Shown in pieces: positions 49,648 to 58,570 of a stretch of 64,000 nucleotides of DNA. Position 1 is the stretch's first letter, and every line of letters begins with the position of its first letter. Source of the DNA: an uncultured Methanobrevibacter sp. (GTDB lineage: Archaea; Methanobacteriota; Methanobacteria; Methanobacteriales; Methanobacteriaceae); NCBI RefSeq assembly GCF_902769175.1, contig NZ_CACXNW010000020.1, forward strand, positions 3,223 through 67,222, in the 5' to 3' direction. The notes beneath the pieces were generated by a model. It did no database searches and had not been told where the DNA came from. It was given only the letters and a program-made list of their open reading frames with translations. The position numbers and the translations under genes are program-made.

Positions 49648-50385
49648 TTAAATCCTATCCAAAAAGAACTTAAACTCATTATGATCCATTATTTCAACTA
49701 TTTCAAAGAGTCCTAAATCTCTTAATCTGTCAAAAGGCTTTCTTAAGATAAACCTATATGAGCCTACCCTATCTGCAGTAGGATTCCGCTTATCTGAAAT
49801 GGCTACAACAATATAAACCTTCTTCATATTAGATAGGAACTCCCTAATATCGATCATATCCTCTTTAGAAATATTGTTCTTAATGCAATAATCCTTATAG
49901 ACATTAGGCAAAGCCAAATCAAGTGTTTCAAATGGCTTCAATCTTAGCTTAAATGCAAGCTCATCCCCAGTATTATTGTAAATCCTCTTCAATCTATTAT
50001 AATACTTTTCCTTACATGGACTGTCATTGCTAATATAACGCAATACATTATTAAGCTCTTTTCTCTTGTTGTTCCAATCGATTATAACACCTTTGAACTC
50101 AATGAAATATAAAACTTTTCTCTTTTTATCCAAATATAAGGCATCACATGTAGATGGCAGGTTACAAACATTTATAATATCAGTAGTCCTACAAATATCG
50201 TCAAAGGAATACATCATGAAATCACTACTTACAAGAGGTTCCTTGTTTTTGCTTACACATTCCTGCTGTTTCCTTGAAGGACAATTCTTATCATGAGTCG
50301 GACATGGCATTGATATCTCTGAAACCGGCTGATAGTACTTATTGTATGATGATAGAAACTCATCAAACTTTTCAATATCGTTCAT
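49648..50385 (-). CDS. Nuclease-like partner of the AAA ATPase
   Basis: A 245-residue protein. The centre has TCDALYLDKKRKVLYFIEFKG, the D and ExK spacing of a PD-(D/E)XK nuclease core. An N-terminal cysteine cluster (CPTHDKNCPSRKQQEC) could bind metal. The end contains DRVGSYRFILRKPFDRLRDL. The ATG follows the ATPase gene immediately, and the ribosome site GGTGAT is inside the ATPase's last codons, so the two are translationally coupled. The pairing suggests an ATPase-nuclease defence module, but I cannot assign it to a named system. Confidence 0.65.
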   Translation of the reverse strand: MNDIEKFDEFLSSYNKYYQPVSEISMPCPTHDKNCPSRKQQECVSKNKEPLVSSDFMMYSFDDICRTTDIINVCNLPSTCDALYLDKKRKVLYFIEFKGVIIDWNNKRKELNNVLRYISNDSPCKEKYYNRLKRIYNNTGDELAFKLRLKPFETLDLALPNVYKDYCIKNNISKEDMIDIREFLSNMKKVYIVVAISDKRNPTADRVGSYRFILRKPFDRLRDLGLFEIVEIMDHNEFKFFLDRI

Positions 50386-51348
50386 CTAATCACCATCTAA
50401 CTTCTTAAACATCAATTCCATCTTGATTTCATCCAAAATGTCATAAGGCTGACCAAGGTTTCTGTATATTTCCTCAAGATTATTGGAATCAATATTGATT
50501 ATATCATACTTTAAATCTTCAGATGGCTGTGTCAGGAAGAAAAAGCATTCATCAATAAGGCCATAGTATTGAGAATATAATTCAATTGCTTCAATGAAGA
50601 ATGGGCTATGGGAAGCAACGAAAATTGCAAGCTCCAATTCCTTAGACAAAAGAACAAGAATCTTTGCAAACTCAACCTGCCATTCAGGGTGGAGATTGAC
50701 TTCAGGCTCATCCATAATGAGAAAGCTGTGTTTCGTCAATTCACCGTTTCTAAGAAGTGTTTGGAATAGGGCAAGCTGCTTGATTCCTGAAGATGTGTTT
50801 TTCATTCGGGTCTTCAATCCGTTCTTTCTTAGGAAGAAGAGTTCTCCATTCTCTTCCTGCATATATCCTCCAAGGATTTCATTGAGGATCCTTTCCACTT
50901 CCAAATCATTTTTAGGCTTCTTATCATTATCTATTATTAGGGCATCTTCCAATGCCTTTACATGCTCCAGGAAGTATGTGCCTCCTGACCTATTGTCAAA
51001 CAATGAGAATGAATCAAAGTAAAACACTTTAGTGAATTCAACATCCCCGTTTTTGATGAACTCATAATTCTTGAAGTCAATTTTATATGAAAAATCCAAC
51101 ATTTCTACGTGGACACATGCACAGTCCCTATCCTCTTGAGGACCTGTTATGTCAAATTCAGATTCCATCAGACCATTTAACGTAGAATCATTATGAGCTG
51201 AGATTGCCCTTATGAAACAGTACAGCAGATTTGTTGCTGTGGATTTTCCTGTACTATTCTTTCCGCCTATAACATTGATTCTACCCATATCCATATCCGC
51301 TTTTCTTATTGAGCCTACATTCTTGATTTTAAAATTGAAGATTGACAT
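50386..51348 (-). CDS. AAA ATPase of the SMC/OLD type, defence-associated
   Basis: A 320-residue ABC-type ATPase: N-terminal FKIKNVGSIRKADMDMGRIN, Walker A GGKNSTGKST near 28-37, the signature region TSSGIKQLALFQTLL, Walker B SFLIMDEPEVNLHPEWQ, and the H-loop VASHSPFFIEAIE. This is the AAA_15/AAA_21 pattern found in OLD nucleases, Septu, PARIS and Gabija-like systems. No TOPRIM domain is fused; the nuclease-like protein downstream is the probable effector. AGGGGAAT precedes the ATG. Confidence 0.8.
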   Translation of the reverse strand: MSIFNFKIKNVGSIRKADMDMGRINVIGGKNSTGKSTATNLLYCFIRAISAHNDSTLNGLMESEFDITGPQEDRDCACVHVEMLDFSYKIDFKNYEFIKNGDVEFTKVFYFDSFSLFDNRSGGTYFLEHVKALEDALIIDNDKKPKNDLEVERILNEILGGYMQEENGELFFLRKNGLKTRMKNTSSGIKQLALFQTLLRNGELTKHSFLIMDEPEVNLHPEWQVEFAKILVLLSKELELAIFVASHSPFFIEAIELYSQYYGLIDECFFFLTQPSEDLKYDIINIDSNNLEEIYRNLGQPYDILDEIKMELMFKKLDGD

Positions 51349-51804: not shown

Positions 51805-52539
51805 CTATATATCACCAATAATGTAATCAGAAAGTTGTTCGTTCCTTGAATTCATATCACGGCCAAGGAATAATCTTTTATAATCAGATCCATAACGTCC
51901 TGAATTGATTTGCATAACTTTATCTAAAACCTGTTCATTATATGCACCTAACTCTTTAGCAATTTCTTCAATGGTTGCACTACCATATAATCTGTAAACG
52001 TTGTATGTGAATTCATCATCGCCAATAGGTGTAAAGAGATATCTGTCTACAACATTCTGAGTTTGATCAACAGTCATATTTACTTTTTCAGCAATTTCTT
52101 TACATCTGAAACCGTATTCATACATGCAATTGATTTCATCAAGGACAGAATCAATATATCCAACATTCAGTTCATTGTGTTTGTTATAACTAGTGTCGTA
52201 GTAAAGGTTAATCAAGTCATAATTGCTTATTATATATTCACTGTATTCTACAATAGGTTCTGTTTGGTTATCAACAAGCTCATTATCCCCATCAACAGGT
52301 TCTGTTTGGATAGAATTTACATCATCATACCTCATGACAGGCTTTGGGTCATCTGCAGCAATTTCATCAACATCATTTACATCAGCAATTGAATCAGCAG
52401 TGTCATCTACAACAACCACATTATCAATATCATTGATTTCAACATCATCTACAGTGCCGTTATCAGCAGCTGAAGCTACACTTAGCCCAACAAGGGCTAT
52501 AATCATAATAGCAAAAGCAATTAAAATATTCCTAGTCAT
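51805..52539 (-). CDS. Secreted protein with acidic linker and HTH-like C-domain, paralogue 1
   Basis: A 244-residue protein. Residues 1-24 are a signal peptide (MTRNILIAFAIMIIALVGLS). An Asp/Val-rich acidic linker follows (about 25-95). The last 140 residues have two similar helical units: CKEIAEKVNMTVDQTQNVVD and ATIEEIAKELGAYNEQVLDK, which look like helix-turn-helix segments, then GRDMNSRNEQ and the ending IIGDI. I choose the ATG at 52539 because AAAGGGG precedes it; an earlier ATG at 52605 overlaps the promoter. Site C lies 80 bp upstream. It is paralogous to the next two genes. Function unknown. Confidence 0.78.
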   Translation of the reverse strand: MTRNILIAFAIMIIALVGLSVASAADNGTVDDVEINDIDNVVVVDDTADSIADVNDVDEIAADDPKPVMRYDDVNSIQTEPVDGDNELVDNQTEPIVEYSEYIISNYDLINLYYDTSYNKHNELNVGYIDSVLDEINCMYEYGFRCKEIAEKVNMTVDQTQNVVDRYLFTPIGDDEFTYNVYRLYGSATIEEIAKELGAYNEQVLDKVMQINSGRYGSDYKRLFLGRDMNSRNEQLSDYIIGDI

Positions 52540-52619
52540 TAAATCCCCTTTATAAAAGTTTTTAGTGTATAAAACACTTGATATAATTTTTGTAAAAGAC
52601 ATCATATAAAGATTTTTGC

Positions 52620-52639
52620 ATGTAAGTACTCACTTACAT
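52620..52639 (-). promoter_or_regulatory. 20-bp palindromic operator, site C
   Basis: ATGTAAGT-ACTC-ACTTACAT, a perfect inverted repeat. In the direction of the gene at 52539 it is followed by GCAAAAATCTTTATATGA, a TATA-like box about 10 bp away. It lies 80 bp before the ATG. Confidence 0.85.
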
Positions 52640-52783
52640 CTTTAAATTAAAAAATAAATATTTAGATTTCTTAAAAATAAAAAACAAATAATAAACATTA
52701 TAATTAATAAAAATAGACAATTTATAATAAAAAAAATATAGTTTAAAAAAAAGAATTAAAAAAAAGAAAAAGTAAAAGTTTTT

Positions 52784-53539
52784 TTAGGCAAATAAAGTCC
52801 AATCAATACAATCGACGTGTAAATCACCGATAACCAATTCTGGATGATTTTCGTTTAATGAATGCATATCACGACAGAGGAATAAGTCTTTATAAGTTTT
52901 TCCCAAAAATCCTGATTTGATAAAAATTACCTTTTGAAAAACTTGTTTCTTATCTACACCTAACTGATTAGCCATTTCCTCAAGGGTTAAAGTACCGTAT
53001 AATTTGTAAACGGAATAGCTGAAATGATCTCCTCCAAGAGGATCGAAATAATATTTGTCTATAAGGGTTTGAACTTCATCAGCAGTCATGTTTGTCAATT
53101 CTCCAATTTCTTTACAGGACTGTCCTGCTGAATACATTTCCCCGAGACTATTAATTATAGGAACAAGGTGGATAATATCCATTTCATTGTGCTTATCAAA
53201 AGTGCCTAAGAAGTAAAAGCTAATCAACTCATAATTTCTTGTTTTTTGACTATTTTCTACAACAGGAACTGTTTGTTTTGTGATAACATCATTTTCATCT
53301 GGACCAACTTCAGTTTGGTTGGAAATATGATCATCTTCCTCGATTATAGGAATTTCATCATCTGAAACAACATCATCTACATCGTCAATTGAATCAACAG
53401 TGTCATCTACAACAACCACATCATCAATATCATTAATTTCAACATCATTAACAGTGCCGTTATCGGCAGCTGAAGCTACGCCAAGCCCAATAAGGGCTAT
53501 AATCATCATAGTAAATGTGATTAATATATTTCTATTCAT
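52784..53539 (-). CDS. Secreted protein with acidic linker and HTH-like C-domain, paralogue 2
   Basis: A 251-residue protein with a signal peptide at 1-24 (MNRNILITFTMMIIALIGLG). The acidic linker begins DNGTVNDVEINDIDDVVVVD, nearly identical to paralogue 1. The C-terminal domain has CKEIGELTNMTADEVQTLID, LTLEEMANQLGVDKKQVFQK, LFLCRDMHSLNEN and VIGDL, then a short extra tail (HVDCIDWTLFA). Site D lies 81 bp upstream of the ATG. The near-identical signal and linker with a diverged C-domain point to recent duplication and selection on the C-domain. Confidence 0.78.
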   Translation of the reverse strand: MNRNILITFTMMIIALIGLGVASAADNGTVNDVEINDIDDVVVVDDTVDSIDDVDDVVSDDEIPIIEEDDHISNQTEVGPDENDVITKQTVPVVENSQKTRNYELISFYFLGTFDKHNEMDIIHLVPIINSLGEMYSAGQSCKEIGELTNMTADEVQTLIDKYYFDPLGGDHFSYSVYKLYGTLTLEEMANQLGVDKKQVFQKVIFIKSGFLGKTYKDLFLCRDMHSLNENHPELVIGDLHVDCIDWTLFA

Positions 53540-53620
53540 TATATCATCTTTATTTAAAAAAAAATTTTTATTCTTAACTCAATTAATTATTTGTTAAAGA
53601 GATTATATAAAGATTTTCGC

Positions 53621-53640
53621 ATGTAAGTGCCTACTTGCAT
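53621..53640 (-). promoter_or_regulatory. 20-bp palindromic operator, site D
   Basis: ATGTAAGT-GCCT-ACTTGCAT, an inverted repeat with one mismatch. Downstream in gene direction is GCGAAAATCTTTATATAA. It lies 81 bp before the ATG at 53539. Confidence 0.82.
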
Positions 53641-53986
53641 CTTAAATTAAAAAATAAAGTCATATAATTCTTAAAAATAAGAAATAAATTAAATTTTAAT
53701 TTATTTAAAAAAATAAAGATTTTATATTATAATAAAAATTATAAAATTATACCAAGGATCTAAGGAAAAAAAGAAAAATGATTCAAAAATTATATTATAT
53801 TATATTATATTAAATATCTAAAAAAATAGTTATTTTTTTAAAAATCATACATAATAAAAAAATCTATTAAAAAAAATCTACTTATAAAAAAGTAAAAAAT
53901 AAAGAATTGGATAAATAATTAATTATTATATAACAAAAAAAACTATTAAAAAAAAGCAAAAAATAAAGAAATGGATAAAAAATTAA

Positions 53987-54717
53987 TTATATATCCCCAA
54001 TAATAAATTGGGTCTTGTTTTCAGATAACAAATGCAAGTTACGGTTATGGATTATGATTTGATAAACTCCTCCGAAAGTTCCATTTTTTAAATGATGAGA
54101 TAAGAAATAAGTTTTGTTGTACCGGTTCCTAATTCATCAGCCATTTGTGCAATGGTTTTGGTTCCGTATGCTTTGTAAACATAATCTGCTTTCTCATTGG
54201 TAATAGGCACGACACAAAGTTCATCTACAGCACTTTGTACTTCATCGGCAGACATGTTAAACTCTTTACCAATTTCAATGGTTGAGTATCCTGACATATA
54301 CATCATATTGATTTTCAAAAAGATACCAACATCCAAATCCTTAGGGTTATTGATTTTAGGACCATGATCGTTTTCATCCTTAACAACATCATCAACAGGA
54401 GTTTCATTATCTATGACATCATCATGACCAATAACATCAGTACTGTTGTTTTCATCAACAGCAGGTACATCAGCACTAATGTTTTCATCTTTAACAGGAA
54501 CATCACTGATGTTTTCATCACCAACAGACACATCAGCACTAATGTTTTCGTCAACAACAGATACTTTATCGATGACTATATTATCACCAGTGGTGAAACT
54601 TACATTATCATTTTGACTTACATTATCTGCAGCGCCACAATCAGCTGCAGAAACCATACCTAGCCCTACAAGGGCAATAATCATTAAAGTAAAAACTGTA
54701 AATATATTTCTTTTCAT
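53987..54717 (-). pseudogene. Secreted protein paralogue 3, frameshifted near its end
   Basis: The first 209 codons are open from 54717: signal peptide MKRNIFTVFTLMIIALVGLG, then an acidic linker with repeated DENISADV units, then STIEIGKEFNMSADEVQSAV and TIAQMADELGTGT. There a one-base change in the AACAAAA segment near 54105-54115 gives an early stop at 54088. In the other frame the family ending continues: NGTFGGVYQIIIHNRNLHL and FIIGDI with the stop at 53987. The frame thus lost about 45 residues of the C-domain. Site E lies 81 bp upstream. The shortened secreted protein may still be made. Confidence 0.8.
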
Positions 54718-55052: not shown

Positions 55053-55694
55053 ATGACAACAATTATTCCAAGAGAAATAAAATGTCCAGTATGTGGATAA
55101 GAAATAACAGCCACCTTGATTGGAAGTACAAATGCCATGGGCTATGCTGATTTGGATTTGAGACCACCTGAAATGCAAAGAAGCACAATGTATCAATCCA
55201 CATGTATGTGTGAATGCGGTAATGTATTTGAATCTGCATCCAATGGATGTTCAAGAGAATTGGTTGAAAGTGAAGCATATCAAAGCTGTGATGGAATAGA
55301 CTTTAACTCTGAAAAAGCGTTTATGTTCTATAGGGCTTATATGATTGACAGAGAGTCCAATCCAAATGATTTGGCATCAAACTTTTTCCATATCCTACAT
55401 GCTGCATGGGCTTGCGATGACTTTGATATGGAAAATGCACGTAAAATGAGACTGATTGGAATTAATCTGCTTGAACAAATCATTAATGATGAGCAATATG
55501 AGCATGTGAAAAATGACAATCTTTTGATGGAGGCGGATCTATTGCGCAGAAACGGCAAGTTTGACTTGCTTATAGAAAAGTTCAATGACATTAAATTTGA
55601 GGATGAAATCTATCAGAAAATAATCGATTTCCAATTAAAAAAGGCAAGTCAAAAAGATGATTCACGATATACTGTTGGAGATGTGATTGGATAA
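55053..55694 (+). pseudogene. DUF2225-like zinc-finger protein with in-frame TAA at codon 16
   Basis: A strong site AGGAGG precedes ATG at 55053. The protein starts MTTIIPREIKCPVCG, meets TAA at 55098-55100, and continues in the same frame with EITATLIGSTNAMGYADLDL to 55694 (213 codons in all). The cysteine pairs CPVCG and CMCECG with DLDLRPPEM are as in DUF2225-like proteins; the rest is helical (NLLEQIINDEQYEHVKNDN). AAA-to-TAA is the simplest origin, since Lys is common after CPVCG. A downstream TTG at about 55116 could restart translation, but it would lose the first zinc knuckle. Confidence 0.75.
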
Positions 55695-55758: not shown

Positions 55759-55884
55759 AATCATTTCAATTATAAATTAAGGAATTTAAATTAAAAACAC
55801 CCTTTTTTTAATCATTTCAATTATAAATTAAGGAATTTAAATTAAAAACACCCTTTTTTTAATCATTTCAATTATAATTTTTAG
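55759..55884. repeat. Tandem repeat, 2.4 x 51 bp
   Basis: The unit AATCATTTCAATTATAAATT... with AAATTAAAAACACCCTTTTT recurs with a period of 51 at 55759, 55810 and 55861 (partial). It lies in the convergent gap between the DUF2225-like pseudogene and the CARF gene. Confidence 0.85.
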
Positions 55885-55911: not shown

Positions 55912-56018
55912 CCTATTCAATTTAAACTTCAAAACATACAAAGCAAACCTTATTTTCCATTAAAACCTATTCATCTTTAACTTCAAATCATACTTGGCAA
56001 ACCTTGTTTCATTCAAAA
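55912..56018. repeat. Duplicated 3' end of the CARF gene
   Basis: The segment about 55912-55964 (CCTATTCAATTTAAACTTCA ...) is a diverged copy of 55965-56018 (CCTATTCATCTTTAACTTCA ...), which encodes the last 18 or so residues of the CARF gene. The outer copy is no longer coding. This is another case of a gene end duplicated next to its stop. Confidence 0.65.
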
Positions 56019-57249
56019 ACCTTTTCATGTCCTTGTCTAGTTTAAGTGCAAGACATTCAACTAGTTCTTCAAACTGATCGAAATCTTCCTTATCCAATGA
56101 TTCAAGGCCATGAGCTAAAATGGAATTGTTTCTTTTAATGGTGAGATTGTTGATTCTGTTTCTGTTTTCTGCAAAGTATTTTCCCAAATCATCATCCAAT
56201 TCATATAGAAGTTCAAAGTCCTTAATCAATCCTATCCTTATTTTACCTTCAGACCTTGTTTTTTCAAGGGTTTCAATGAAATCCTTGCTGATGTTTTTCT
56301 CCTCAAGAACACCAACATCAATATCTGAACTTTTAAGCCCATAATTGCCAAGGCTTATCTGTGCAATAAGCTCAAATGCCCTATATAGACGAGCGATTGC
56401 ATCATCATACTTGTATTCCTCTGCCCTTCTTATTGAATTGTTGATTATGCTTGCAAGGATATAGCAGTACTTCAGCTTCTCATGAGGAGACCTTACAATT
56501 GTGCCAAGTGCCTTAAGGTTTATCTTCAATTCATCCCTAATGTCATTGAAGAAAATGCTGTCATGATTTACCTTGGTCATATAGTCGTATGCAATTTCAA
56601 AATCCATATTGTCCCATGCATAATATGCCTTAACAAGGTTTAAAAGGTCTTCCTTAGGAATATTTTCATCAACAATCGTATCCAATATCTGACTTGCAGT
56701 GTAGAATCTGTTTTCATTGAAATGGCTTCGCATCCTCATGATTGAAAACCTGTCATAGACTTTGTAGAGATTCTGAAACTGTATTGATTCGGTTCCAGGA
56801 GAAACAACCCCTCTCTTTCTATCTCCACTAACAGTTATAAGGTCCTTTGAATAGAACATTCCACAGCAGGCCATAGCTGCAGACATGGTTTTGGTTCCGG
56901 AAGTGTAATCCATGATAATTTCATTCTTTTCTTCAGAGAGTATATCCAATTTCCATATTTTAGCTTCAAAGGCTTCAAAGCAGGAATTGAAATTGTCAAT
57001 ATCCTCTAAAATGACAATTTCATAATCTTGTCCTTCAATGAACTCATCATCATCCGCTTCAAATAGCTCCTTAACAAAATCTATAGTGCCTTTGGATAAT
57101 TCAGATGCAAAAAATATTATATAATCCGGATAGATCTTGCTTATAGATGAATAGATTCCCTTGGCCAAATGTTGAAAGCCTTCTATGTCTGAATTTGGAT
57201 TAACTCCTGTTCCAACTGTCATGAATAATGTTTTGATTTTCCTTCTCAT
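55960..57249 (-). CDS. CARF-HEPN protein (Csm6/Cas02710-like CRISPR ribonuclease)
   Basis: A 429-residue soluble protein. Residues 1-170 fit a CARF domain of the TIGR02710 type: LFMTVGTGVNPNSDIEGFQ and the ligand-loop motif IIMDYTSGTKTMSAAMA. The middle is helical. The C-terminal part has RLYRAFELIAQISLGNYGL and the RX6H motif RNNSILAH near residue 375, as in HEPN ribonucleases. In type III CRISPR, cyclic oligoadenylate binds CARF and switches on HEPN RNA cutting. No other cas gene is in the window; the CRISPR array is 14 kb away. Domain assignment is by motif only. Confidence 0.8.
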   Translation of the reverse strand: MRRKIKTLFMTVGTGVNPNSDIEGFQHLAKGIYSSISKIYPDYIIFFASELSKGTIDFVKELFEADDDEFIEGQDYEIVILEDIDNFNSCFEAFEAKIWKLDILSEEKNEIIMDYTSGTKTMSAAMACCGMFYSKDLITVSGDRKRGVVSPGTESIQFQNLYKVYDRFSIMRMRSHFNENRFYTASQILDTIVDENIPKEDLLNLVKAYYAWDNMDFEIAYDYMTKVNHDSIFFNDIRDELKINLKALGTIVRSPHEKLKYCYILASIINNSIRRAEEYKYDDAIARLYRAFELIAQISLGNYGLKSSDIDVGVLEEKNISKDFIETLEKTRSEGKIRIGLIKDFELLYELDDDLGKYFAENRNRINNLTIKRNNSILAHGLESLDKEDFDQFEELVECLALKLDKDMKRFLNETRFAKYDLKLKMNRF

Positions 57250-58287: not shown

Positions 58288-58403
58288 GATATCACCGGAC
58301 TAATACTATAAACTTCGTCACTTATAAATGTTTGCTATATTAAACCCCATATGAAAATAAATTTTGATAAAATATCATGAAAAATAAGATAAAAAAATAA
58401 AAA

Positions 58404-58570
58404 ACGATAAAATTATTTGTTTACTACAATACAATTCCAAATCACAAAAAAGTAAAAATCGATAAAATTATTTGTTTACTACAATACAATTCCAAATCAC
58501 AAACCAAATCACAAAAAAGTAAAAATCGATAAAATTATTTGTTTACTACAATACAATTCCAAATCACAAA
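58404..58570. repeat. Tandem repeat, 3 copies of 55-67 bp
   Basis: Three copies of a unit containing CGATAAAATTATTTGTTTAC followed by TACAATACAATTCCAAATCAC lie between the 90-aa gene and the MFS gene end. The third is offset by an extra 12-base CAAACCAAATCA-type duplication. The array directly precedes the 54-bp dispersed repeat. Confidence 0.85.

Follow-up and report, generated by a model that had tools for sequence, protein, structure and literature searches.

A Csm6-type CARF-HEPN ribonuclease conserved in Methanobrevibacter genomes that mostly lack Cas10

What might a Csm6-type ribonuclease respond to in a genome where no Cas10 is detected? The question is raised by a gene in a stretch of 64,000 nucleotides (the window, analysed as a whole) from an uncultured Methanobrevibacter sp. 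An earlier note, made from the letters, had described a CARF-HEPN protein with a TIGR02710-like CARF motif and an RX6H HEPN motif, RNNSILAH, and with no type III genes beside it within 64 kb. Both motifs are present (DYTSGTKTMSAA at residues 114-125 and R373-x6-H380), the domain assignment is upheld by profile searches, in which TIGR02710, PF09670, PF22205 and PADLOC all agree, and the absence of type III genes extends to the whole assembly. That the gene belongs to a widespread, conserved and largely vertically inherited clade was not visible from the window alone.

The open reading frame starts with ATG and encodes 429 amino acids (Table 1). The translated sequence belongs to the TIGR02710 family with a score of 199 bits (E 1e-58, cut-off 83.9), and the PADLOC model CARF1--CARF_HEPN gives 467 bits. 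Two domains of Csm6 are over their cut-offs, the HEPN domain PF09670 at 108.6 bits (cut-off 27) and the 6H linker PF22205 (Csm6_6H) at 38.1 bits (cut-off 27.6). The Csm6 CARF profile PF22208 is matched partially, at residues 75-140, and its 24.4 bits are slightly under the cut-off of 27.5; despite this, an AF2 model with a Rossmann-like sensor (mean pLDDT 90.8), the fold match and CARF motifs I and II agree on a predicted CARF domain. The best solved fold matches of the model (Foldseek) are structures of Thermus thermophilus Csm6 (TtCsm6), either without ligand or in complex with A2>p or cA4, with E about 1e-13 to 1e-12 and TM 0.62-0.72 (by query length). TtCsm6 is also the sole significant solved relative by sequence alone, its entries giving E 6e-4 to 5e-3.

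Table 1. Positions in the window of the CARF-HEPN gene and of the domains and motifs of its product
Feature	Position	Strand	Basis
CARF-HEPN ribonuclease gene (TIGR02710/Csm6-type)	55960..57249	(-)	Profile matches, AF2 model, PDB fold match
CARF (Rossmann-like) sensor domain, residues about 1-160	56770..57249	(-)	Alternating strands and helices in model; PF22208 partial; Foldseek CARF matches including Cam1 and Csa3
CARF motif I VGTG, residues 12-15	57205..57216	(-)	Invariant in 29 aligned orthologues; follows strand 5-11 like motif I of TtCsm6, matched by position rather than by pairwise alignment (PMC10897365)
CARF motif II DYTSGTKTMSAA, residues 114-125	56875..56910	(-)	K120 aligned to cA4-binding Lys137 of TtCsm6 (PMC10897365)
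GTE of ligand-covering loop, residues 152-154	56788..56796	(-)	Invariant in 29; E154 aligned to adenine-contacting Glu179 of TtCsm6
6H linker domain, residues 165-235	56545..56757	(-)	PF22205
HEPN ribonuclease domain, residues 258-399	56053..56478	(-)	PF09670
HEPN catalytic motif RNNSILAH (R373-x6-H380)	56110..56133	(-)	R373, N374 and H380 aligned to R415, N416 and H422 of TtCsm6

Residues T133, G135, K137 and E179 of TtCsm6 map to T116, G118, K120 and E154 of the window protein, and E332, R415, N416 and H422 map to E293, R373, N374 and H380. In TtCsm6, K137 binds cA4, E179 contacts adenine and E332 holds the catalytic arginine (PMC10897365). All mapped pocket and catalytic residues are invariant in 29 orthologues except K120, which is kept in 28 and is Arg once; R373, N374 and H380, which have the R-x4-6-H spacing of Csm6 HEPN domains, are also invariant in 13 cas-linked relatives. 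Csm6 proteins cleave single-stranded RNA as dimers upon activation by a cyclic oligoadenylate; for this activity the comparison covered residues. The intrinsic ring-nuclease pair of TtCsm6, Y161/N164, is replaced by T139/G142, and a ring-nuclease off-switch is therefore not predicted; the two columns are Thr, Ser or Cys and Gly throughout the clade, and the cas-linked relatives are likewise without the pair. At the column of K30, a His is found in 9 of 13 cas-linked relatives and in none of the 29 orthologues, a loss that may hint at a changed ligand or changed ligand handling.

The assembly that holds the window is a draft archaeal genome of 3.12 Mb in 65 contigs, 88.5% complete, from the genus that includes M. 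olleyae (here g1). Neither Cas10 nor type III RAMP proteins were detected in it, near the gene or elsewhere, with absence of Cas10 called by TIGR02578 and an independent RAMP search; most of the genomes compared are metagenome drafts. By its sequence the window protein is a TIGR02710/Csm6 member, but it lacks the genomic company that defines a type III effector. The CRISPR content detected is of another type, a type I-B locus on contig C4 with Cas6, Cas7, Cas5, Cas3, Cas4, Cas1 and an array of more than 100 repeats, where a 685-amino-acid protein without family assignment sits in the Cas8 position.

Among 139 genomes of the Methanobacteriaceae, a PF09670 protein is found in 60, RAMPs in 26 and Cas10 in 24. 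In a maximum-likelihood tree, the window protein falls into a 30-member clade with 100/100 support; each carrier genome has a single member, and the clade spans two Methanobrevibacter genera, that of the window and a second (g9). Members are 58-80% identical to the window protein, over those aligned. The clade is nested next to Cas10-linked relatives, the closest of which are 37-43% identical. Cas10 is absent from 26 of the 30 carrier genomes, eight of these 26 being at least 95% complete, and RAMPs are absent from 25. Cas10, RAMPs and Cas1 are altogether missing from 21 carriers, nine of them 93-99% complete. Within the two genera, the orphan tends to be commoner in Cas1-less genomes (p=0.04, with relatedness ignored).

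Pairwise distances between orphans correlate with those between the CCA-adding enzymes of their hosts (r=0.76; none of 999 permutations was as high), the 40 enzymes used being a single-gene proxy for the species tree. The clade thus broadly tracks host phylogeny and is largely vertically inherited, although several losses or transfers must be assumed to explain where the gene occurs. At the expected empty site of non-carriers, contigs end nearby or the anchor match is weak. Carriage by phages or plasmids was considered and rejected; no relative was found in viral_contigs or phage records, and four distant plasmid matches (22-27% identity) are all bacterial.

Orphans of g1 have a common gene order of LemA, DUF2207, an MFS transporter and a 90-amino-acid gene, followed by the orphan, and those of g9 have a few recurring contexts of their own. 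No neighbour is common to both genera throughout, and a fixed operon partner was rejected. Several other features lie in the same part of the window. A two-gene unit at 49648-51348 (-) encodes an OLD/AAA_15-type ATPase of 320 amino acids and a 245-amino-acid partner with a PD-(D/E)xK-looking stretch (YFIEFKG); it resembles the HEC-02/AriA/PD-T4-4 defence ATPases and is near the CARF-HEPN gene in five g1 loci. Three related small proteins (266, 251 and 209 amino acids) with signal peptides and acidic low-complexity stretches are encoded in a row at 51805-54717 (-). A zinc-ribbon-like gene at 55053-55694 (+) has an in-frame TAA at 55098-55100, directly after the first CPVCG, which is either a nonsense change or a sequence error. 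Short direct repeats, read by eye, are found in non-coding DNA at 55760-55870 and 58390-58500 and flank the region.

The explanation favoured here, with moderate confidence, is that the protein is a domesticated, CRISPR-independent, ligand-gated ribonuclease, activated by an oligoadenylate-like molecule that Cas10 does not make. Encoded on the chromosome and passed on largely by vertical descent, this Csm6-type ribonuclease would have arisen within a type III-associated family and become independent of CRISPR. As in the rest of the family, the protein would dimerise, binding of an adenylate in the composite CARF pocket would remodel the HEPN dimer, and the HEPN sites would then cut cellular single-stranded RNA, with growth arrest as the result. 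The least certain step is the source of the activator, which is presumed not to come from Cas10. Foremost among the candidates is a linear, A-rich RNA end with a 2',3'-cyclic phosphate (A4>P type), as might be left when toxins or stress nucleases cleave RNA or in the course of an infection; alternatively, an unrecognised synthase might make the activator. Linear A4>P is reported to activate TtCsm6 (Niewoehner 2017, cited in PMC10897365), and the divergent CARF domain of RtcR binds tRNA halves that end in a 2',3'-cyclic phosphate (PMC7790460). RNA ends would be a remaining Cas10-free source of activator. Counted against this explanation are the frameshifted copies and the many species without the gene, described below, the loss of the K30-column His, the four carriers that have Cas10 and the incompleteness of the window's own assembly.

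Known producers of nucleotide signals were searched for in the same 139 genomes. The c-di-AMP synthase domain DAC was found in none of them, whereas 11 of 14 controls, including M. jannaschii and other archaea, were positive, and c-di-AMP was rejected as the ligand. For mCpol there was no match over cut-off, with a single sub-threshold match in another genus, and it was rejected as a signal source. GGDEF domains, likewise rejected, are present in eight genomes, none of which carries an intact orphan. The SMODS match in the window's own genome is the CCA-adding enzyme, and nearly all other SMODS matches, having the same size and profile position, were taken to be this enzyme as well; a CD-NTase signal was rejected on this ground. 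Carrier G075 alone has a second SMODS protein, probably a true CD-NTase. A true SMODS/CD-NTase of 88.9 bits was also seen in a non-carrier of the window's genus (G029:C17:56558-56923, locus L095). Neither mCpol nor a CD-NTase, by which a Panoptes/CBASS-like effector would be recognised, was found beside the window gene or in its genome.

These results leave part of the earlier suggestion of another nucleotide-signalling system standing. The named producers mCpol, DAC and GGDEF were not found in clade genomes and a true CD-NTase in just one, but such a pathway may still operate. The earlier note had also regarded a genome with no signal producer as evidence against its reading. In the window's genome known producers were indeed not found. 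The sensor is nevertheless conserved, and this points to an activator of another kind rather than to a lack of function. A complete signalling pathway, in which a genuine cyclic oligoadenylate is made by an unrecognised cellular synthase, is unlikely but deserves consideration: the cA4-type pocket is retained, including K120 and E154, and because mCpol, DAC and GGDEF are negative in carriers and the SMODS proteins are presumably CCA-adding enzymes except in one, any synthase would need to be a novel type of enzyme. Against such a pathway, no candidate synthase is found beside the gene and the neighbours differ between the two genera.

An improbable reading is that the gene is a degenerate relic, left behind by a type III system since lost, and retains little function or none; VC1899 of Vibrio cholerae is a precedent (PMC7969007). 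Four genomes have frameshifted copies (L120, L122, L123 and L124) and presence is patchy, with many species of both genera lacking the gene; it is therefore dispensable. However, every close pair has a dN/dS of 0.08-0.16, and the value is 0.09-0.16 where both genomes are without a detected CRISPR gene; judged by these ratios the clade is under purifying selection. The pocket and catalytic residues also stay invariant over 29 species, with the K120 exception given above, unlike those of an eroded CARF in a third genus, g12. There, PF09670 proteins (L061-L072) occur in genomes without Cas10, and motifs I and II are eroded or the CARF domain is largely missing, which leaves proteins of about 300 amino acids; the RX6H motif of HEPN survives in 12 of 13 Cas10-less g12 family members. 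An unused sensor thus decays in the PF09670/TIGR02710 family while HEPN is kept, whereas in the g1/g9 clade the sensor is intact. This contrast, drawn from the alignments, is the strongest argument that the orphan may still sense an adenylate-like ligand. The g12 proteins appear to represent a second and different fate of an orphaned CARF-HEPN protein, in which the sensor is lost and the ribonuclease motif retained.

Still more improbable is an ordinary type III effector served in trans by a Cas10 encoded at another site of the genome or within the 11% that the assembly does not cover. The incomplete assembly leaves room for it, sharing in trans among type III loci has been suggested (PMC11229360), and four clade members are in genomes with Cas10 (G017, G019, G038 and G087). 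The closest distance between orphan and Cas10, 12.6 kb, is in G019, where the flanking genes match those of other g1 orphans. Yet for incompleteness to have hidden Cas10 in all 26 Cas10-less carriers has, by a simple estimate, a probability of about 1e-30. Other family members are tightly linked to Cas10: in Cas10-bearing genomes, distances were measured for 32 further PF09670 proteins, of which 28 are 0.1-7.4 kb from Cas10 and four are on different contigs. The orphan clade shows no such association, Cas10 being present in 4 of 30 carriers and 8 of 56 non-carriers of g1 and g9 (Fisher p=1). The proposal in the earlier note of a distant type III partner is therefore not supported for a gene that occurs independently of Cas10 in its two genera.

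The weakest alternative is a ligand-independent, toxin-like ribonuclease that a partner protein or low expression keeps in restraint. It draws on a small protein, containing the HEPN-like stretch RAYYSAY, that is encoded upstream of the orphan on the opposite strand in five g1 species (e.g. L040:7076-7501 (-)). This protein has no Pfam match, however, and does not occur next to the window gene or at any g9 locus, and constitutive activity would leave the invariant CARF pocket unexplained.

It is conceivable, although this is offered tentatively, that Methanobrevibacter has a conserved cellular oligoadenylate signalling pathway outside CRISPR, CBASS and Panoptes, in which an enzyme or an RNA-damage process makes the ligand for an intact Csm6-type ribonuclease. 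A CARF protein that lies outside any type III locus is often dismissed as a relic. Here a Csm6 clade can be traced over 30 species with sensor and ribonuclease intact and the known signal-making enzymes mostly missing. With the contrast between g1/g9 and g12, what a CARF domain senses without Cas10 becomes a question open to direct testing, both in rumen methanogens in culture and on the purified protein.

CARF homologues outside CRISPR are acknowledged as abundant (PMC12669027), and the orphan can be set beside several known systems. Like RtcR, a CARF-AAA transcription activator, it is a CARF protein without Cas10 (PMC7790460); the CARF of RtcR is divergent and there is no HEPN domain, whereas that of the window protein is of the canonical Csm6 kind and is joined to HEPN. 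VC1899 (DUF1887) is an orphan CARF nuclease with another effector domain, described as cast adrift, a weak RNase without regulation by cA4 whose pocket has been lost (PMC7969007); its pocket is unsuited to cA4, whereas the orphan clade keeps the pocket. The Cas10-linked TIGR02710 CARF-HEPN proteins of the Methanobacteriaceae are of the same family and have motifs I and II, the GTE loop and HEPN in common with the orphans, but they differ in their proximity to Cas10 and in the K30-column His. The likeness to TtCsm6 (PDB 8jh1, 8jbb, 5fsh) extends to the CARF-6H-HEPN order, the fold, the cA4-pocket residues and the HEPN catalytic residues; the differences are an identity of about 20%, the replaced Y161/N164 pair and the lack of a detected type III locus in the window genome. 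No paper with both Methanobrevibacter and TIGR02710 was found in the literature searched, and as far as that search reached, a deep, single-copy, selected clade that keeps its pocket without Cas10, together with an eroded case in another genus, is new.
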